Assembly: GCF_000430445.1 (NCBI RefSeq)
Contig: NZ_KE387086.1
Coordinates: 16,708-51,070 of the forward strand
Direction: 5' to 3'
Source: Saccharomonospora iraqiensis subsp. iraqiensis
GTDB lineage: Bacteria > Actinomycetota > Actinomycetes > Mycobacteriales > Pseudonocardiaceae
Length of the DNA: 34,363 nucleotides
Below are positions 3 through 17,767 of this stretch, one piece after another. The translations under genes and the position numbers were made by a program. Every line of letters begins with the position of its first letter. Positions within the stretch are counted from its first letter, which is position 1. The notes below the pieces were generated by a model. That model ran no database searches, was not told the DNA's origin, and saw only the letters and a list, made by a program, of their open reading frames with translations.

Positions 3-695
3 GTCGTCGCCGTCGGCGGCGACGGACTGGTCCGCGACGTCGCCGCGGGCGTGTACGGGACCGGGGCGGGCATGGCGATCGTCCCCGCCGGACGCGGCAA
101 CGACCTCGCCCGCGGGCTGGACCTGCCCACCGGCGCCGAGGACCTCGCCGCGATGCTCGTCCGCGGCGCCACCCGCACCGTCGACGTCCTCGACGCGGCG
201 GGTCACATCGTCCTCGGCAACGTCTACGTCGGCGTCGACTCCGTGGCCACCGAGGCGATCAACCGCAACCGGTGGCTGCCCGGACACCTCGTCTACCGGC
301 TCGCCCCGCTCGGCGTGATCCTGCGGTGGTCGGCGCCCGAGTTCACCCTGACCACCGACACAGGCACGACGACGGCACGGCGGCACCAGGTGGTCGTGGC
401 CAACTCCGGCCGGTACGGCCACGGGCTGCACATCGTGCCCTCCGCGCGGCTGGACAGCGGCACCCTGGAGGTACTCACCGTCGCCGACGCGCCCCGGCAC
501 CGGATCATCCGCTTCCTCGGCCAGGCGAGGACCGGGACGCACGTCCACTCGGACGCGGTCACGGTCCGCACGGCCACCGGGATCACCCTCGACGCCGACC
601 GCGCCGTCCCGGTCCACGCCGACGGCGACTACCTGTGCGAACTGCCGGTCACCATCCGCGTCCGGCCCGCCGCACTCGACCTCGTCGTCCCGTAG
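3..695 (+). CDS. Diacylglycerol kinase family lipid kinase, 5' end outside the window
   Basis: The reading frame is open from the first bases of the window, so the true start lies upstream. The first visible residues are VVAVGGDGLVRDVAAG, which contains the GGDG nucleotide-binding motif of the diacylglycerol/sphingosine kinase catalytic domain, followed by PAGRGNDLARGL, the family's P-x-G-x-x-N-D-x-A element. The rest matches the beta-sandwich C-terminal half and ends in DLVVP. Members phosphorylate lipid alcohols with ATP at the inner membrane face; the substrate cannot be told here. The last 94 bp are repeated almost exactly at 1393-1486, on the far side of the HigBA module, so this gene end seems to have been duplicated during acquisition of that module. 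Confidence 0.88.
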   Translation, partial: VVAVGGDGLVRDVAAGVYGTGAGMAIVPAGRGNDLARGLDLPTGAEDLAAMLVRGATRTVDVLDAAGHIVLGNVYVGVDSVATEAINRNRWLPGHLVYRLAPLGVILRWSAPEFTLTTDTGTTTARRHQVVVANSGRYGHGLHIVPSARLDSGTLEVLTVADAPRHRIIRFLGQARTGTHVHSDAVTVRTATGITLDADRAVPVHADGDYLCELPVTIRVRPAALDLVVP

Positions 696-699
696 TCCC
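606..699 (+). repeat. 94-bp direct repeat, left copy (3' end of lipid kinase gene)
   Basis: This segment, the last codons and stop of the lipid kinase gene, recurs at 1393-1486 with 91 of 94 positions identical by my alignment. The three differences change Ile to Val, Ala to Thr and Leu to Pro in the encoded C-terminus, so they look like divergence between homologues rather than silent drift. The two copies bracket exactly the HigBA cassette. Confidence 0.9.
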
Positions 700-708
700 G
701 TGGCGACA

Positions 709-732
709 CACACCGGGCCCCGGGGGCCTGTG
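709..732. terminator. Candidate hairpin between convergent kinase and higA
   Basis: CACA at 709-712 can pair with TGTG at 729-732, and GGCCC at 716-720 with GGGCC at 724-728, leaving a small bulge. It lies between two convergent stops (695 and 739), where a bidirectional terminator is expected. No U-tract is present, as is common in actinomycetes. The pairing is imperfect. Confidence 0.35.
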
Positions 733-738
733 GGCTTG

Positions 739-1044
739 TCAGCTCACGGCCGCGAAGGGATCGATGGAGTCCAGGGTGGCGCCGATCCGGTCCTTGGTGA
801 CCTCACGATCGTAATCCTCCTGGAGCCCGGTCCAGAAGGCCTCGGACATGCCGAGGAAACGGGACAGTCGGAGACCTGTGTCGGCCGTGATGCGGCGCTG
901 ACCGTGCGTGATCGCGCTGATCCGGGTCTGCGGGACGCCGATGGCCTTGGCGAGCTGGTAGTCGGTGATATCCATCGGTTCGAGGAATTCCTCGCGCAGG
1001 ATGACGCCGGGGTGGGTCGGCGCCATCACCTTGTCCTCACTCAT
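739..1044 (-). CDS. higA: HigA-type XRE-family antitoxin
   Basis: A 101-aa protein beginning MSEDKVMAPTHPGVILREE. The HPGVILREEF start followed by a helix-turn-helix (YQLAKAIGVPQTRISAI, about residues 30-46) is the hallmark of HigA antitoxins, which bind and neutralise HigB and repress their own promoter. The ATG at 1044-1042 is chosen because an AGGAGG ribosome site lies 5-10 nt upstream; a longer open frame upstream merely overlaps the toxin gene. It lies 13 bp after the toxin stop, in the toxin-first order typical of higBA loci. The module is bracketed by the 94-bp repeats. Family assignment is secure; operator binding is inferred from a palindrome next to the promoter. Confidence 0.9.
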   Translation of the reverse strand: MSEDKVMAPTHPGVILREEFLEPMDITDYQLAKAIGVPQTRISAITHGQRRITADTGLRLSRFLGMSEAFWTGLQEDYDREVTKDRIGATLDSIDPFAAVS

Positions 1045-1057
1045 GGCGTTCCTCCTA

Positions 1058-1336
1058 CTAGTGGTAGTCGGTGATCTCGACCTGTTCCGGACCTGCACCA
1101 GTCCAGCGAAAGCAGATGCGCCATTGGCGGTTGATCCGGATGCTGTACTGGCCCGCCCGATCACCGCGGAGTCGCTCGAGTCGGTTGCCGGGCGGCACGC
1201 GCAGATCGTCAAGCGACGCCGCACGGTTGAGCATCGCGAGCTTGTTCCACGCGAGCCGCTGTGTATCGGGATGAAGTCTGGTGCGGCGTCGTTCCCAGAC
1301 CTGGAGCGTGTGCTTGTCCGCGAACGACTGGATCAC
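1058..1336 (-). CDS. higB: HigB-type (RelE-fold) mRNA-interferase toxin
   Basis: A 92-aa protein starting at GTG. It has the family signature: an N-terminal FADKHT segment, the central RLAWNKLAMLNRAASLDDLR region, then RLERLRGDRAGQYSIRIN and QWRICFRW, ending VEITDYH. HigB enzymes cleave ribosome-bound mRNA. Length and order (toxin before antitoxin, 13-bp gap) fit the family. There is no Shine-Dalgarno sequence before the GTG; instead a -10-like hexamer ends 6 nt before it, so the mRNA is probably leaderless. Key basic residues such as the arginines of the ERLRGDR and INRQWR segments are present, so the toxin looks intact. Confidence 0.9.
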   Translation of the reverse strand: MIQSFADKHTLQVWERRRTRLHPDTQRLAWNKLAMLNRAASLDDLRVPPGNRLERLRGDRAGQYSIRINRQWRICFRWTGAGPEQVEITDYH

Positions 1337-1342
1337 AACCTG

Positions 1343-1371
1343 ATGCTACCGGATCACGTTAGTAACGGCAA
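1343..1371 (-). promoter_or_regulatory. Promoter of higBA (TTGCCG - 17 bp - TAGCAT)
   Basis: On the minus strand TTGCCG (1371-1366) is followed after exactly 17 bp by TAGCAT (1348-1343). Six nucleotides later comes the GTG of higB (1336). This fits a sigma-70-type promoter with transcription starting at or next to the start codon. Seen in sequence; the start point is inferred. Confidence 0.65.
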
Positions 1372-1372
1372 A

Positions 1373-1390
1373 CGGCAGCAATCGCTGCCG
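1373..1390. promoter_or_regulatory. Candidate HigA operator, 7-bp perfect inverted repeat
   Basis: CGGCAGC-AATC-GCTGCCG is a perfect palindrome with a 4-bp spacer, lying 1 bp beyond the -35 hexamer of the higBA promoter. Its position suits autorepression by the HigA or HigBA complex. It ends 2 bp before the right copy of the 94-bp repeat, so it also marks the edge of the cassette. Confidence 0.55.
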
Positions 1391-1392
1391 CA

Positions 1393-1486
1393 GTCCCGGT
1401 CCACGCCGACGGCGACTACCTGTGCGAACTGCCGGTCACCGTCCGCGTCCGGCCCACCGCACCCGACCTCGTCGTCCCGTAGTCCC
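1393..1486 (+). repeat. 94-bp direct repeat, right copy (displaced kinase gene end)
   Basis: A second copy of the lipid kinase 3' end including its stop codon (TAG at 1480-1482), with three substitutions relative to 606-699. It has no gene body in front of it, so it is a gene-end relic. It was left behind, or brought in, when the HigBA cassette was placed next to the kinase gene. Confidence 0.9.
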
Positions 1487-5330: not shown

Positions 5331-5489
5331 GGTCGCACTCTTGGCAAGGGCTCGTCGGTACTGGCCCACCCAGGCGATTAACATGGGAGGTTCCATCGGC
5401 GTCACACACCGCGATCGGAGAGCCACCGGAGGCGAGACCGGCGCAGACCGACGGGAACATGATATCCTCTGCTATCGGAGGTGGCTCCC

Positions 5490-5699
5490 TTGACTGACGT
5501 ACTTATCCGCAACGTACCTGATGACGAGTTGCAATACATTGACGAACGCGCTGCCGCTCTCGGCCTCTCTCGCGGGGAATATCTGCGTCGGCAGATCGCC
5601 AAGGACGCCGTCCGTGGGTCTGGTGTGGTGACGCCCGATCAATTCGCCAAGTTCACCGACCTAGCGGACGAAGATCTGATGCGTGGAGCCTGGTCGTGA
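5490..5699 (+). CDS. vapB: VapB-type antitoxin (ribbon-helix-helix)
   Basis: A protein of about 69 aa: an N-terminal ribbon-helix-helix DNA-binding segment (TDVLIRNVPDDELQYIDERA, then LGLSRGEYLRRQIAKDA) and an acidic C-terminal tail (FTDLADEDLMRGAWS) of the kind that wraps around the toxin. I choose the TTG at 5490 because GGAGGTG at 5477-5483 is ideally spaced for it; the GTG at 5481 overlaps that ribosome site. The stop overlaps the toxin start as GTGA, so the two are translationally coupled. A TATCCT hexamer at 5463-5468 may be the -10. Antitoxin of a type II pair; it is likely to repress its own promoter. Confidence 0.85.
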   Translation: MTDVLIRNVPDDELQYIDERAAALGLSRGEYLRRQIAKDAVRGSGVVTPDQFAKFTDLADEDLMRGAWS

Positions 5700-6112
5700 T
5701 CGAGACGGCATGGCTGATCGACAAGTCAGCACTCGCGCGCCTCGGCGCGAGCCCGGATGCGGATTTGTGGTCCCGGCGTATCGAACGCGGACTGGTACAG
5801 GTCGCGACCCCGACGATCCTTGAGATCGGGTACTCGGCACAGGGCGTTACCGACTGGACTAATCGTGTTGAGATGCCGCCTGTTGCGCTCATGCCTCTCG
5901 CGAGCATTACACCCGCCGCAGAGCGGCGCGCTGTCGAAGTACAAAAGCGGCTGGCACACGCGGGGCACCATCGGGCTCCCTCTGTACCGGACATCCTCAT
6001 AGCCGCGATCGCCGAACTGGATCGCCTTGCCGTTCTCCATGTCGACAAGGATTTCGAAGTCATCGCTGACGTGACTGGGCAGGAAACGCACCGCCTCCAA
6101 ACGTCCGATTGA
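5696..6112 (+). CDS. vapC: VapC-type PIN-domain ribonuclease toxin
   Basis: A 138-aa PIN-domain protein. The acidic metal-binding residues are visible: D9 in WLIDKSALARL, E43 in ILEIGYSAQG, D99 in VPDILIAAIAEL and D117 in VLHVDKDFEVIA. This is the complete Mg2+-dependent RNase site, so the toxin appears intact. VapC enzymes cleave tRNA or rRNA. GTG at 5696 overlaps the vapB stop (GTGA). The module lies between the convergent P450 and ferredoxin-reductase genes and is bounded on both sides by hairpins. Confidence 0.92.
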   Translation: MIETAWLIDKSALARLGASPDADLWSRRIERGLVQVATPTILEIGYSAQGVTDWTNRVEMPPVALMPLASITPAAERRAVEVQKRLAHAGHHRAPSVPDILIAAIAELDRLAVLHVDKDFEVIADVTGQETHRLQTSD

Positions 6113-8793: not shown

Positions 8794-9741
8794 ATGCGCG
8801 TGTTCGTGGCGGGCGGCAGCGGTGTCCTTGGGCGTCGGCTGGTGCCGCGGCTGGTGGCCCGGGGACACCAGGTGACGGCGACGACGACCAACGCCGACCG
8901 GCTGCCGATGTTGGAGCAACTGGGCGCCGAGGGTGTCGTGATGGACGGCCTGGACGCGGCCGCGGTCGAGGCGGCGGTGACCGCCGCCCGGCCGGACACG
9001 GTGGTGAACCAGATGACGGCCCTGTCCCCGGCACACGCCGGGAAACCCGACTTCCGCAGGCCCGACCGGTTCTTCGCGACGACCAACCGGCTGCGCAGCG
9101 AGGGCGTCGACAACCTGCTGGCCGCGGCCGCGACGGCCGGTGTCTCGCACGTCCTCGCGCAGAGCCACGGCAGTATGAACGGGATCCGCCGGGGCGGCTG
9201 GGTGAAAACCGAGGACGACCCGTTGGAGGTGCTGGAGGGCACCACGGCGGTCAACCACCTGGAAGACGTGGTGACCGCGGCGGGCGGCGGGGTGCTGCGC
9301 TACGGCAGCTTCTACGGGCCCGGCGCCACCGACGACCAGGTGCGGCTGGTGCGCAAACGCCTGTTCCCGCTCGTCGGGGACAGCACCGGACACTTCTCCT
9401 GGGTGCACCTCGACGACGCGGCCGAGGCCACCGTCCTCGCCGTCGAACAGCGGGCGACCGGCGTGTTCAACATCGTCGACGACGACCCCGCACCGGTCCG
9501 CGAATGGCTACCGCACCTCGCGCGATGCGCCGGGGCGAAACCCCCGCGGCGCATCCCCACGTGGCTGGCCCGGCTGGTGGCCGGGGAAATGCTGGTGGGC
9601 ATGATGACCGAGGGGCGGGCCTTCTCCAACGCCAAGGCGAAACGCGAACTCGGCTGGCAACCGGGCCACCCGTCGTGGCGACAGGGCTTCGCCGACGAAC
9701 TCAGCCGTTCAGGGAATACCCCCGCAGGCCCGGCGTGGTGA
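8794..9741 (+). CDS. NAD(P)-binding extended SDR / epimerase-like protein, atypical active site
   Basis: A protein of about 315 aa with an N-terminal Rossmann motif FVAGGSGVLGRRLVPRL and extended-SDR features (RYGSFYGPG, HLDDAAEATVLAVEQ). Where the catalytic YxxxK is expected, the sequence reads TTAVNHLEDVV, so both Tyr and Lys are missing. It may therefore bind NAD(P)H for a regulatory or non-classical role. GGAGGT at 8781-8786 favours ATG 8794 (or GTG 8791) over an earlier GTG at 8785. Its C-terminus has the RELGWQP motif common in sugar epimerases. Function not identified. Confidence 0.85.
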   Translation: MRVFVAGGSGVLGRRLVPRLVARGHQVTATTTNADRLPMLEQLGAEGVVMDGLDAAAVEAAVTAARPDTVVNQMTALSPAHAGKPDFRRPDRFFATTNRLRSEGVDNLLAAAATAGVSHVLAQSHGSMNGIRRGGWVKTEDDPLEVLEGTTAVNHLEDVVTAAGGGVLRYGSFYGPGATDDQVRLVRKRLFPLVGDSTGHFSWVHLDDAAEATVLAVEQRATGVFNIVDDDPAPVREWLPHLARCAGAKPPRRIPTWLARLVAGEMLVGMMTEGRAFSNAKAKRELGWQPGHPSWRQGFADELSRSGNTPAGPAW

Positions 9742-9794
9742 GAGGAGACGGGCACGGCGAATCACGGAAACAGGGATGTCGTCGCAGGTGTGCG

Positions 9795-10001
9795 CTAGTG
9801 GCCGAACCCGTCCGCCAGCAGCTGGTCAACCCGTTCGGACGTGTCGCGGCGATGTCCCATGGCCGCGCCGAACCACGCCGGTGGCCAAGGCGATTCCCGC
9901 GCCGGACGCAGGTGCCGCCGGACAGCTTCCAGTACATGCGGCACTTGCTCGTCAGGCAACTGCCGCACAAGACGCTCGAGCTTCTGCCTCTCCGAGGTCA
10001 T
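9795..10001 (-). CDS. Small antitoxin-like protein, no toxin partner seen
   Basis: A 68-aa protein: an N-terminal helix (TSERQKLERLVRQLPDEQV) and a C-terminal WPPAWFGA... LLADGFGH tail. This layout resembles small actinobacterial proteins often annotated as antitoxins or uncharacterised; I do not recognise a named family with certainty. Start ATG 10001 is chosen because TATGCT lies exactly 6 nt before it (leaderless pattern); a TTG at 10016 is possible. No toxin gene is adjacent: the minus-strand neighbour upstream is the serine hydrolase, ending 27 bp before this start. Confidence 0.6.
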   Translation of the reverse strand: MTSERQKLERLVRQLPDEQVPHVLEAVRRHLRPARESPWPPAWFGAAMGHRRDTSERVDQLLADGFGH

Positions 10002-10928: not shown

Positions 10929-11492
10929 GTCCGCTCGACCCCCACACACCGCGCGATCGGGTTCGACAGCGTGGCGCGGAGCCGCTCCGCCTCGTCGCCG
11001 ACGTCCGCGCTGATCTCGTATCCGCGGGCCGGATTCGGTCCAGGTGGCCTCGTCCGCGGGCACGGCGACGAGCGCGGCGCGGACGTCGGCGGCACGCAGC
11101 AGCTCGGAGCGCCGCCCGGGTGGCGCCGGGCGGAACTCGAGGAACAGTTCCTGCGCACGGGCCTCCCTGTCGAGCTCGGCGAGGTCCCGACTCCGGCAGA
11201 GGTCCGGAACCGCCACCGACACCGGGCGGAGCCGGGCCCGGTCGGCGTCCCGCTCCATCGCGTCGGCGAGGTGCACCAGCCGCTGCGCCCACGGCAGCAT
11301 GTCCCGCCCGAACGGCGTGAGGTGCGCACGCCGGGCGGAACGGTCGAAGAGCCGGTCACCGAGGTGCTCCTCCAGCGCGGCGATCCGCCTGCTGGCCACC
11401 GGCTGCGGAATCCCGAGGGCGGCGGCCCCGCGGGGGAAGCCACCGGACTCGCCCACCGCCACGAAGGCACGGCAGCCACTGACCAGGTCCAC
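10925..11492 (-). pseudogene. LysR-family regulator with internal deletion and frameshift
   Basis: The N-terminal HTH is intact in one frame (VDLVSGCRAFVAVGESGGF, then PQPVASRRIAALEEHLGDRLF and LTPFGRDML). It continues to about residue 154, ending VPADEATWTES. The C-terminal end appears in the next frame, starting ARGYEISADVGDEAERLRA and finishing GVERT-stop. Joined, they give about 190 aa against about 300 for the family, so roughly 100 residues of the effector domain are missing and the frame is shifted near 11030. The stop overlaps the hydrolase GTG (GTGA), showing that the C-terminal frame is authentic. The start is GTG 11492. A sequencing error could explain the shift but not the missing segment. 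Confidence 0.75.
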
Positions 11493-11605: not shown

Positions 11606-12497
11606 ATGCGATTCCTGACCAGGTCCGTTCCGGCCCTGCTGCTGGTGACACTGGTGGGCTGTGCGCCGCAGCAGGCCGCACACCCGACACCCGGCCCCCG
11701 GGAGTCACCGACGACGCCGGTCGGTGAGCGGGTGGACTCCCCCGCGCGGCCGGACTTCGCGGAGCTGGAGCGCCGCTACTCGGCCCGGCTCGGTGTGTAC
11801 GCCCTCGACACGGGCAGCGGTACGGAGATCACCCACCGCGCCGACGAGCGCTGGGCGTTCTGCTCCACGATCAAGCCCTTCACCGCCATGGCCGTGCTGC
11901 AACGCACCACCCTGGACGGGCTCGACGAGCCGATCACCTACAGCCGCGAGGACCTGATATCCCACTCCCCGGTGACCGAACAGCACGTGGACACCGGGAT
12001 GACGCTGCGCGCGGTGCTGGAGGCGGCCGTGCGGAACAGCGACAACACCGCCCAGAACCTCCTGCTGGACGAAGTGGGCGGACCCGCCGGGCTGCAACGG
12101 GCACTGCGCGAACTCGGCGACACCGTCTCGCACGCCGACCGGTACGAACCCGAGCTGAACGAGACCGCACCGGGCGACATCCGGGACACCAGCACCCCGC
12201 GGGCCCTCGCCACCAACCTGCGGAAGCTCGTGCTCGGCGACGTGCTCGCGCCCGGAAAGCGGACGATCCTGCGCGAGGCGATGCGGAACCCGCCGCTGAC
12301 CGCAGACCTGATCCAGGCGGGCGTGCCGGACGACTGGCAGGTCGAGGACAAGTCCGGCGCGGGCGGATACGCCACCCGCAACGACATCGCGGTGCTGTAC
12401 CCGCCGGAGCGGGCGCCGATCGTGCTCGTGGTGCTGTCCGACCGCGCCCGGCCGGACGCCGAGTACGACGACACCCTGCTCGCCGAGGCCGCCCGCG

Positions 12498-12520
<23 letters not shown>
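11606..12520 (+). CDS. Class A beta-lactamase, lipoprotein
   Basis: A 304-aa protein. An N-terminal signal with lipobox LVGC (Cys19) predicts a membrane-anchored extracytoplasmic enzyme. All class A motifs are present: S87-TIK90, S145-D-N147, omega loop R179-Y-E181-PELN (E181 is the equivalent of Glu166) and K249-SG251 (KSG rather than KTG). It should hydrolyse penicillin-type lactams. ATG 11606 has an AGAGGAG ribosome site. It is divergent from the broken LysR gene, the arrangement used by AmpR-like regulators to control a beta-lactamase, so its regulation may be altered. Its 3' end overlaps the convergent ATPase gene by 23 bp. Confidence 0.95.
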
Positions 12521-15263
<2,743 letters not shown>

Positions 15264-15780: not shown

Positions 15781-16542
15781 ATGTACGCACGCTATGTCGC
15801 CCTCGGCGACAGCCAGACCGAGGGGATCGGCGACGGCGACGACCGGCACGGGCACCGCGGCTGGGCCGACCGCCTCGCCGAGCGGCTCGCCCCGCACAGC
15901 CCCGGCCTGGAGTACGCCAATCTCGCCGTGCGCGGCAAACGCATCGGCCAGATCCACGCCGGACAGCTCGCACCGGCCCTGGCGATGGAACCCGACCTGG
16001 CCACCGTCGTCGCCGGACTGAACGACCTCATCCGACCCCGGTGCGACGTCGACACCGTCGCCGACCACCTCGACCGGATGATCGGCGCGCTCACCGCCAC
16101 GGGAGCCCGGGTCGCCACCCTGACCTACCCCGATGTGGGCGCGATCGCCCCGCTCGCCCGCCGCCTGGCGCCCCGGATCACCGCGTTCAACGCGCGGGTG
16201 CGCGACATCGCCGCCCGGCACGGCGCCACGGTGGTGGAGACCGACCGGCACGCGGTGTGCACCGACCGGCGCATCTGGAGCGCCGACCGGCTGCACCTCA
16301 ACCCACTCGGCCACGCCCGCCTCGGCCACGGATTCGCCCACGCCCTCGGCGTCCCCGACGTCGACGACTCGTGGACCCACCCGCTGCCCGAACACCCGGC
16401 ACCCGGACCGGTCCGAACCGTCGCGGACGAAGCCCGGTGGGCCGCCGCTTTCCTCGCGCCGTGGCTGTGGCGCAGGATCACCGGGCGCTCCTCCGGCGAC
16501 GGGCACACCGCGAAACGCCCCCACCCGGAACCGGTGTCCTGA
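15781..16542 (+). CDS. SGNH/GDSL-family hydrolase
   Basis: A 253-aa protein. Block I GDSQTEG gives the nucleophile S11, block II has G52 (AVRGKRIGQ), block III is GLND (N81), and block V is D169-x-x-H172 (ADRLHLNPLGH). All four SGNH catalytic residues are present, so it should be an active esterase or lipase on acyl or acetyl esters. There is no signal peptide, so it is likely cytoplasmic. ATG 15781 has a GGGAGGAG site. An extra C-terminal region (about 200-253) with a WRRITG segment is beyond the core fold. Substrate unknown. Confidence 0.92.
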   Translation: MYARYVALGDSQTEGIGDGDDRHGHRGWADRLAERLAPHSPGLEYANLAVRGKRIGQIHAGQLAPALAMEPDLATVVAGLNDLIRPRCDVDTVADHLDRMIGALTATGARVATLTYPDVGAIAPLARRLAPRITAFNARVRDIAARHGATVVETDRHAVCTDRRIWSADRLHLNPLGHARLGHGFAHALGVPDVDDSWTHPLPEHPAPGPVRTVADEARWAAAFLAPWLWRRITGRSSGDGHTAKRPHPEPVS

Positions 16543-16619
16543 GTGGTGGGTGTGCGGGGGCCCACACGGCCCGACACCGTGCCCAGAGGTTGTTCCGGGC
16601 AGGTCTACACTCGCCGGGC

Positions 16620-17213
16620 ATGCGACACCTCAACGCCTCAGCGGCCGCGGTCGCGGCGGTCGCCACGCTGACCCTGGCAGCCTGCGGCGCCGACACCGGC
16701 AGCGGGGCGGAGGGGGAAACCGCACCGAGCACGACCGGCACGAGCGCCGACAACGGTCCCGGCGCGAGCCCCGACACCGCCGCGAGCCGGGCCGCGGACC
16801 CGACACCCGCCGACGAGATCCCCGACGCGGAGGTCGTCGAGGGCTCGTTCGCGGTGCTGCCGTCCGCGCCGGAGACCGCACCGCAGTCCGTGCGGGGCAC
16901 CGTGTGGCTGGCCCGGCACGACGACGGCACCACGGTCACCGTCGACGTCACCGGCCTGGAACCGGACACGAAGTACACCTCGCACCTGCACGCCGAATCC
17001 TGCGAACCGGACGACGGCGGCCCGCACTTCCGGTTCGACCCCGACGGGCCGGCCCAGCCGCCGAACGAGGTGCACCTGATGTTCACCACCGACTCCGAGG
17101 GCAGCGCCTCCACCACCGTCACCAACCCCAACCCGGACAGCGACGGCGCCAACGCGATCCTGCTGCACCTCGACGACGACGCCGGCACCAAGTTCGCCTG
17201 CGCGGACCTGTAA
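16620..17213 (+). CDS. SodC-like superoxide dismutase family lipoprotein
   Basis: A 197-aa protein with signal and lipobox LAAC (Cys22), a disordered Thr/Ser/Pro/Asp-rich linker of about 60 residues, then a Cu/Zn-SOD-like Greek-key domain. Copper-site histidines are recognisable in SHLHAESC, GGPHFRFD, and NEVHLMF, with a late ILLHLDDD and the paired cysteines ESC and FACADL for the usual disulfide. The zinc-ligand Asp is not obvious, so SOD activity is uncertain; many actinobacterial members of this type are of unknown activity. ATG 16620 lacks a Shine-Dalgarno sequence; TACACT (16606-16611) 8 nt before it suggests near-leaderless transcription. Confidence 0.85.
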   Translation: MRHLNASAAAVAAVATLTLAACGADTGSGAEGETAPSTTGTSADNGPGASPDTAASRAADPTPADEIPDAEVVEGSFAVLPSAPETAPQSVRGTVWLARHDDGTTVTVDVTGLEPDTKYTSHLHAESCEPDDGGPHFRFDPDGPAQPPNEVHLMFTTDSEGSASTTVTNPNPDSDGANAILLHLDDDAGTKFACADL

Positions 17214-17223
17214 GACATCACCC

Positions 17224-17260
17224 CGGGCGGGGCAGGTCGGTCGAAGACCCGCCCCGCCCG
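17224..17260. terminator. Long GC-rich hairpin between convergent genes
   Basis: The arms at 17224-17238 and 17246-17260 pair over 15 positions with one mismatch around a GGTCGAA loop. It lies 10 bp after the SodC-like stop and 12 bp before the end of the minus-strand Imm21-like gene, so it can serve both. It also marks the left edge of the immunity island. Confidence 0.8.
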
Positions 17261-17272
17261 CCGGTCCCTGCG

Positions 17273-17767
17273 TCATTCGAGCCGGAACTGCAGGAGACGC
17301 AGCTCAGCGACCTCAGGAATCTCCACGTCGGCCCACCACACCTGATGACGTCCGGTCGGCAGTTCGACACGGAGCCAATCTCCCGCACCCAGTCTGTCGA
17401 AGCCGAGCGCGGAGTCGAAGAGCACGAGAGGCTCGTGCACCACGAACTCCGTCTCCCACTCCCACCGGGCCCCCGCGGCCGCCTCGGGCACCGCTGCCAG
17501 TACGTCCTCATCGTCCTCGGCATCCTGGGACAGCGCCCGCACGAACATTCGCATCTCAGGGAGAAACACCGTGTCCACAGGCTCATCCGCGAGGATCAGA
17601 GCCGTTCGCCCACCGACGTCGATGGCTCCGACCAACTCCCCGACCGCACACGCCCGCGCGTAATCATCCGTTCCCCCGTCCGCACCGAACACCCCGGACC
17701 AATGCTCCAGCACGGACTCCGGGACACCAATGAGCGGACCGCCTTCCGTCTCAACCCAATCGATCAC
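17273..17767 (-). CDS. Imm21-like immunity protein (first copy)
   Basis: A 164-aa acidic protein starting IDWVETEGGPLIGVPESVL. The W(V/I)E-GGPLI-(V)PES opening, the ACAVGELVGAIDVGG and LADEPVDTVFLPEMRMF stretches match what I know of Imm21 family immunity proteins of polymorphic toxin systems. It is a clear paralogue of the gene at 18430-18993 (same spacing of GGPLI, PESVL, LADxP, FLPExRMFVRA). Starts at GTG 17767 without an obvious ribosome site. It lies 176 bp downstream of the SMI1/KNR4 gene, same strand. The cognate toxin is not in the window. Confidence 0.75.
   Translation of the reverse strand: MIDWVETEGGPLIGVPESVLEHWSGVFGADGGTDDYARACAVGELVGAIDVGGRTALILADEPVDTVFLPEMRMFVRALSQDAEDDEDVLAAVPEAAAGARWEWETEFVVHEPLVLFDSALGFDRLGAGDWLRVELPTGRHQVWWADVEIPEVAELRLLQFRLE

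Follow-up and report, generated by a model that had tools for sequence, protein, structure and literature searches.

A HigBA toxin-antitoxin pair between two copies of a lipid kinase gene end, and gene-end-bounded cassettes in other Pseudonocardiaceae

The window, by which we mean the whole stretch of 34,363 nucleotides that was analysed, comes from a Saccharomonospora genome (G000). Near its left edge a small toxin-antitoxin (TA) locus is flanked on either side by a copy of a lipid kinase gene end, with the following features:

3-695, + strand: 3' part of a YegS/DAGK-type lipid kinase gene, the host (target) gene (Pfam YegS_C 2.3e-40, DAGK_cat 7.7e-13)
606-699, + strand: gene-end copy 1 (kinase end, TAG stop plus 4 nt), joined to the kinase body (repeat search, base-by-base comparison with relatives)
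700-738, no strand: spacer from copy 1 to higA
739-1044, - strand: higA antitoxin, 101 aa (NCBIfam TIGR02607 antidote_HigA 7.5e-28, over cut-off; Pfam HTH_3)
1058-1336, - strand: higB toxin, 92 aa, GTG start, RelE-like (Pfam PF05015 HigB-like_toxin 1.2e-16, over cut-off)
1337-1395, - strand: region upstream of higB, TA-family sequence as far as CGCAGTC (1389-1395), by alignment to the HigBA of G016
1373-1390, no strand: perfect inverted repeat CGGCAGC-AATC-GCTGCCG shortly before copy 2 (from the sequence; putative role only)
1393-1486, + strand: gene-end copy 2, the displaced kinase end (repeat search)
1513-2445, - strand: luciferase-like (LLM) oxidoreductase gene, the right-hand neighbour (PF00296 1.9e-41), directly after the kinase end in L004

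The two kinase ends are spaced 787 bp apart and are nearly identical. A repeat search aligned 602-699 with 1389-1486 (98 nt, 96% identity), a match far above chance (flank-to-flank BLAST E = 1.4e-44). Base by base, 606-699 and 1393-1486 agree at 91 of 94 positions, and the mismatches at 654 (A/G), 668 (G/A) and 675 (T/C) read as I/V, A/T and L/P in kinase codons, every one changing an amino acid. The original prediction, that the last 94 bp of the kinase gene recur after HigBA with three such differences, is borne out in both parts. Three changes are too few to be taken as a sign of selection, and we rejected that reading of them. The repeat and base comparisons also bear out that the kinase gene is intact at its 3' end and that direct repeats of this end bracket the element, the arrangement by which site-specific elements are recognized. 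The 5' part of the gene lies beyond an N-run in the assembly, upstream of window position 1; an N-run falls at about the same part of the kinase gene in all three Saccharomonospora assemblies (L031, 1399-1498; L032; L033).

The 693 bp between the copies (700-1392) hold higA and higB only. The RelE-like HigB gene comes first and the HTH HigA gene after it, which is the HigBA type II order, and from this order and the Pfam and NCBIfam matches the pair is a predicted HigBA type II toxin-antitoxin. No integrase of the cassette's own, and no transposase, was found within it, as had been claimed. The description of the segment as exactly a TA cassette stands for the two genes, both over their cut-offs, and fails for the terminator-like hairpin it had included: no terminator-like site was found at the left end of the cassette, and when folded the 693-745 hairpin is no more stable than shuffled sequence (z 0.5), on which grounds we rejected a left-end terminator. 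The inverted repeat near copy 2 (7-bp arms, 4-nt loop) has a fold z of -1.66, equalled by 16 of 200 shuffles. At the right junction the TA-family sequence reaches CGCAGTC and so overlaps copy 2 by 3 bp (GTC, 1393-1395), an overlap that is weak as evidence because an illegitimate joint would give the same. Copy 2 does not belong to a second full kinase gene, since the sole other kinase match in the genome is a 29% paralogue on a different contig; a search for the 885-bp segment elsewhere in the window genome returned short, weak matches only (best E 2.4e-4). About 4 kb from HigBA, the window also carries a VapBC pair (5481-6112; VapB scores above its NCBIfam cut-off and VapC belongs to the PIN proteins), the VapC of which is present in both relatives described below.

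Kinases of the window type (>90% identity) occur in only three of the 12 genus genomes: the window genome, S. iraqiensis subsp. paurometabolica YIM 90007 (G007) and S. halophila 8 (G008); the other genomes contain paralogues of 30-38% identity. Local identity between the window genome and G007 is mostly 94-98%, and to G008 mostly 92-95%; by sequence comparison, G000 and G007 are sisters and G008 is the outgroup. G007 has an empty site of the kind that had been proposed as a check: a single kinase end followed directly by the gene at 1513-2445, with no HigBA. The sequence after copy 2 in the window is the sequence after this single end, and a HigBA-less relative with both copies, the case that would have spoken against the prediction, is not what G007 presents. 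In G008 the kinase end is followed after 43 nt by an intact higA, and higB, copy 2 and the oxidoreductase gene are gone. A second same-strand copy of the kinase end was found at none of 27 other kinase loci (L064-L090, including the two relatives), a survey in which 16 loci had a 1.5-kb flank only and two gave no match even to their own end, the query being short.

These relatives bear on two origins of the layout that would involve no mobility, an error of assembly and an ordinary local tandem duplication. The assembly is a scaffolded draft with an N-run within the same gene, and the join of higB to copy 2 is seen in the window genome only. Against this, S. halophila has the left join and S. 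iraqiensis subsp. paurometabolica the right one, the two copies differ at three bases, and the same layout recurs elsewhere, including on a single contig in G024. We consider such an origin highly improbable.

The relatives also indicate an age for the cassette. The distance from the kinase stop to the higA stop is 43 nt in both the window and S. halophila, in the same register, and higA differs between the two at 7 of 54 four-fold sites, compared with 5/113 to 12/85 in neighbouring genes. Since the kinase-higA junction is in register in S. halophila and higA divergence is ordinary, HigBA most likely already followed the kinase in the common ancestor of the three species and was precisely lost in G007; transfer of HigBA between species is a possible alternative to shared descent. 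On the same two observations, we set aside a recent capture in the window lineage. At positions 614 and 697, however, both window copies share a derived base that is absent from G007 and G008. The window copies are thus closer to each other than to the end of either relative, and they seem to be of later date than the insertion that we infer. These bases, which are in tension with setting recent capture aside, would be explained by gene conversion from one copy to the other or by a duplication younger than the split; the kinase site alone cannot decide. Since they share the two derived bases, neither copy looks foreign.

This pattern is relevant to the main rival explanation, in which homologous recombination on one side is combined with an illegitimate joint on the other, a type of event known as homology-facilitated illegitimate recombination. 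A linear donor carrying the kinase end and HigBA would have recombined at the kinase end, and joining of its other end by microhomology, slightly upstream of the crossover, would have duplicated the last 94 bp. The 3-bp overlap of the TA-family CGCAGTC with the kinase GTC is in its favour, as are the shared bases at 614 and 697, which look as if both copies were the host's own end; as a recent event, it fits poorly with a left junction common to S. halophila.

We surveyed 390 family genomes, of which 46, the window genome included, have a HigB match at E <= 1e-12. Outside the window this gave 56 HigA/HigB loci (53 other places from the HigB list and three more), 54 of them with at least 900 bp on both sides. 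The two 600-bp flanks of each locus were compared for direct repeats scoring 40 bits or more, with inverted repeats and flank pairs from different loci as controls. Such direct repeats flank 10 of the 54 loci and equally strong inverted repeats only one (L133); in the cross-locus control, 4 of 150 left/right flank pairs reached 40 bits, all four between udgB-adjoining loci. No such direct repeats were found at the remaining 44 of the 54. Eight of the ten repeats are parts of genes: udgB at L134, L139, L140, L166 and L170, ychF at L163, tRNA-Lys at L130, where the repeat spans the 3' half of the tRNA gene and ends before its last bases, and tRNA-Met at L155. The names udgB and ychF are putative assignments based on characteristic sequence signatures. 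The repeats of the other two loci, L123 (407 bp) and L148, were assigned to no gene end. Since five of the eight share udgB, they are not independent, and the independent targets besides the kinase number four. With wider flanks, G303 also yielded a tRNA-Lys case and G407 copies of the ychF end. Units of a single cassette are 0.7-1.0 kb long at the kinase, tRNA-Lys (G305), ychF (G344), tRNA-Met and udgB; the tRNA-Lys unit of G303 is 1.9 kb.

None of the five HigBAs nearest to that of the window (G029, G403, G016, G383, G374) is clearly bracketed by gene ends. At L191 in G016, a 407-bp direct repeat of 99.8% identity (9548-9954 and 11077-11483) surrounds a HigBA related to the window's; it, too, was assigned to no gene end. 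Several loci have a nearly complete higA with higB absent or short: S. halophila (L002) has no higB, and in G109 (L270) a 3' scrap is left. At five more loci (L164, L166, L170, L172, L173) the higB match begins at a residue of at least 27. Decay that takes the toxin first looks recurrent in these sequences.

At udgB and ychF the cassettes are stacked. Behind udgB, six extra udgB ends lie within ~6.5 kb in G388, the sixth being weak; there are two each in G377 and G380 and three each in G391 and G392, with one of those in G392 degenerate. These five genomes contain udgB arrays in which each cassette is bounded by a gene-end copy and the copies lie ~0.7-2.1 kb apart. G024 has one extra udgB end and one weak one, with the locus on a single contig. 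G407 is the sole genome with a ychF array, made up of two clear end copies and a third, partial one. HigBA pairs were located in the arrays by tblastn, and 20 other array frames were scanned with Pfam, of which 15 matched: among the matches are PIN toxins, a PHD-like antitoxin, Fic/Doc, mycothiol-S-transferase, HAD, GNAT, alpha/beta hydrolase, OsmC, MerR, DUF2268 and glyoxalase, and five frames had no match. Cassettes within one array carry different genes. The array of G388 (L177) includes two HigBA cassettes (12238-12725 and 17058-17545, 84% over 488 bp), in the second of which the higB match begins at residue 27. Beyond the family, a model of the udgB site matched 208 of the 325 genomes sampled from the class, mostly at native gene ends. 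Among the matches listed, most genomes are represented once and most alignments begin in the native-gene part, at model position 25 or beyond; a few genomes have two or three matches, and a few matches start at positions 10-24.

Inspection of the arrays revealed a non-host 16-bp motif, CCGTRAANCCGTTCAC, directly before many displaced udgB-end copies. Within one mismatch it precedes 13 of 19 displaced udgB ends in eight genomes and none of eight native ends; the six displaced ends lacking it are two in G388 and one each in G391, G380, G255 and G110. The agreement among the 12 copies that we aligned is partly a product of selection, as they were picked by a relaxed match to CCGTRAANCCGTTCAC. Across the 390 genomes, an exact 17-base form turns up 13 times, in eight of them (reversed control, 0); 11 of these occurrences lie inside udgB arrays, and those in G107 and G114 make up the two that lie outside. 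Among the loci from L121 upwards and the window, the udgB-type core is found only at udgB ends and in one degenerate place, in G373 (L149). The kinase junction lacks the motif, and no exact match to it occurs anywhere in the window genome. On this distribution, and because the sequences at the kinase, ychF and tRNA junctions are different ones, we rejected a single universal motif for all targets. Viral carriage was likewise rejected: 30 IMG/VR contigs have one exact core each, which by a rough estimate is about chance for a collection of that size.

The clearest trace of an insertion is in G110, which has the layout udgB-HigBA-udgB end. Of nine same-genus relatives searched, the layout could be read in four: G105, G107 and G114 have an empty udgB site, with a single end and no HigBA, while G109 has kept the cassette with the same foreign udgB end and a higB reduced to a 3' scrap. 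Compared with the G105 end, the native end of G110 differs at 1 of 53 positions before the block ATGCTGCG and at 20 of 45 after it; the displaced end differs at 8 of 53 before the block and at 1 of 45 after it. The two ends thus exchange their likeness to G105 at this block, which places the crossover in ~14 bp. Most likely, the cassette brought in a foreign udgB end that now ends the host protein, and the original end was displaced to the far side. The original prediction had proposed capture through a gene end carried with the cassette; the foreign end in G110 speaks for this at udgB, whereas at the kinase neither copy looks foreign.

The prediction had named homologous recombination as the route of capture. 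We do not favour plain homologous recombination at udgB, because of the motif at 13 of 19 displaced ends against 0 of 8 native ones and the ~14-bp crossover. It may nevertheless have acted there, as the displaced ends of G110 and G255 have no motif, so that the motif and the end exchange come from different genomes. As for a fixed core, one crossover was mapped at udgB, and the kinase copies are too alike to map. One-sided recombination, set out above for the kinase, gains from the lack of the udgB-type motif at the kinase junction and in G110, the clearest end exchange. It does not predict recurrence at four other genes, the motif at 13 of 19 udgB-end copies or tandem arrays, and overall we judge it unlikely. 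The suggestion of a possible general route for the spread of TA pairs is plausible, since HigBA modules bracketed by the ends of other genes recur.

We then searched for a recombinase. In the window genome, no PF00589 match lies on contig C69 among the three of six matches listed, and the single PF00239 match is on another contig. Across 22 genomes for PF00589 and 13 for PF00239, none of the matches listed falls in an array, and none of the 20 scanned array frames matched a recombinase or an integrase-type or transfer-type island gene in Pfam. A tyrosine integrase in G392 (C113, 86178-86888; L206, ~16179-16889) was considered as a helper and not taken, as it lies outside the udgB array, ~6 kb past the last core motif and beyond ndh and one further gene. 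Among the matches listed, there is no helper element for the cassettes and no recombinase linked to these sites.

The same frames bear on the idea that the locus is a CIME remnant, in which the gene ends formerly enclosed an ICE or genomic island that was deleted down to the addictive TA pair. The 3' ends of tRNA and conserved genes are classic targets of such elements, and TA pairs resist deletion. Elements with att sites and no integration or transfer genes are described in PMC3146451. On the other side, the single-cassette units are just 0.7-1.0 kb at five targets (1.9 kb for tRNA-Lys in G303), the array cassettes differ in their genes, and 0 of 20 frames are of integrase or transfer island type. 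Decay of a larger island thus appears to us improbable, more so than one-sided recombination.

With moderate confidence, we favour the interpretation that HigBA and a gene end form an att-like cassette lacking an integrase, moved by a recombinase acting in trans. At the window locus, HigBA and one kinase gene end would make up a minimal integrative cassette of ~790 bp with no recombinase gene inside it. The cassette would sit at a gene 3' end because one of its own ends would mimic the end of the host gene. Insertion would restore an intact gene on one side and leave a spare gene end on the other, and recombination between the two gene ends would excise the cassette cleanly. Similar HigBA cassettes lie behind udgB, ychF and tRNA genes in other Pseudonocardiaceae, where they would have moved in the same manner, stacking at udgB and ychF. 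This reading is fairly well supported at udgB, where a site-specific recombinase would act in trans; the anatomy common to the window and udgB, namely an intact gene, a spare far end and a TA pair in between, leads us to infer that the kinase cassette may move likewise. Taken together, the sequences suggest that TA cassettes tagged with a gene end can be acquired and lost behind several different genes. More tentatively, and with less confidence than in the interpretation just given, we propose that the Pseudonocardiaceae have a cassette economy resembling that of integrons, in which the cassettes carry no integrase: small, TA-rich cassettes would use the 3' ends of host genes (udgB, ychF, the lipid kinase, tRNA) as recombination sites, exchange these ends at insertion and build arrays, served by a candidate recombinase in trans.

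It has long been asked by what means chromosomal TA pairs move when they have neither transposase nor integrase. The footprints visible in these genomes are the gene-end tag, the empty sites, the imported foreign gene end and the cassette arrays, and they provide a search rule, to seek displaced gene ends beside TA pairs. The udgB site offers a defined substrate for a recombinase assay. The G110 case, in a uracil-DNA-glycosylase-like gene, suggests that insertion may replace the C-terminus of a host protein. Our search of the open-licence PMC literature (titles and abstract openings) returned no gene-end-bracketed HigBA cassettes, and the open-licence PMC papers on Saccharomonospora and toxin-antitoxin systems had nothing on such cassettes by title.

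The closest known kinds are CIMEs, ssrA/SCC islands and dif modules. CIMEs are mostly regarded as decayed ICEs or IMEs. According to PMC3146451, they keep their att sites, lack integration and transfer genes and can be mobilized with their neighbours by accretion. The cassettes described here similarly have att-like flanks and no integration or transfer genes; unlike CIMEs, they are many, tiny, of few genes and located at several target genes. The ssrA islands of Dehalococcoides, which are SCC-like, are reported in the same paper to be tandem units behind one gene, bounded by direct repeats of its 3' end, with a 20-bp repeat and a 15-bp non-host motif directly upstream of it; in sixteen of the islands there is an integration module that includes a CcrB-like serine recombinase (PMC3146451). 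Our arrays share with the islands the tandem gene-end-bounded units and, at udgB, a short non-host motif upstream. They differ in that the units are 0.7-2.1 kb, the repeats are up to ~100 bp and no integrase was seen in them. The dif modules of Acinetobacter plasmids are small, very often carry higBA and have 28-bp pdif sites at their ends (PMC13141974). Abstracts of other papers tie their shuffling through these short sites to the host Xer recombinases XerC and XerD. Our cassettes are also small and carry higBA. Unlike dif modules, which are plasmid-borne and found in another phylum, they are bounded by host gene ends. In integrons, small cassettes, many of them encoding TA pairs or small enzymes, are lined up in arrays, with an attC R box GTTRRRY. 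The core CCGTRAANCCGTTCAC does not read as this box, and the sites here, unlike those of integron cassettes, are copies of host gene ends; in anatomy, which is all that we compare, the two are alike in being arrays of small, TA-rich cassettes.
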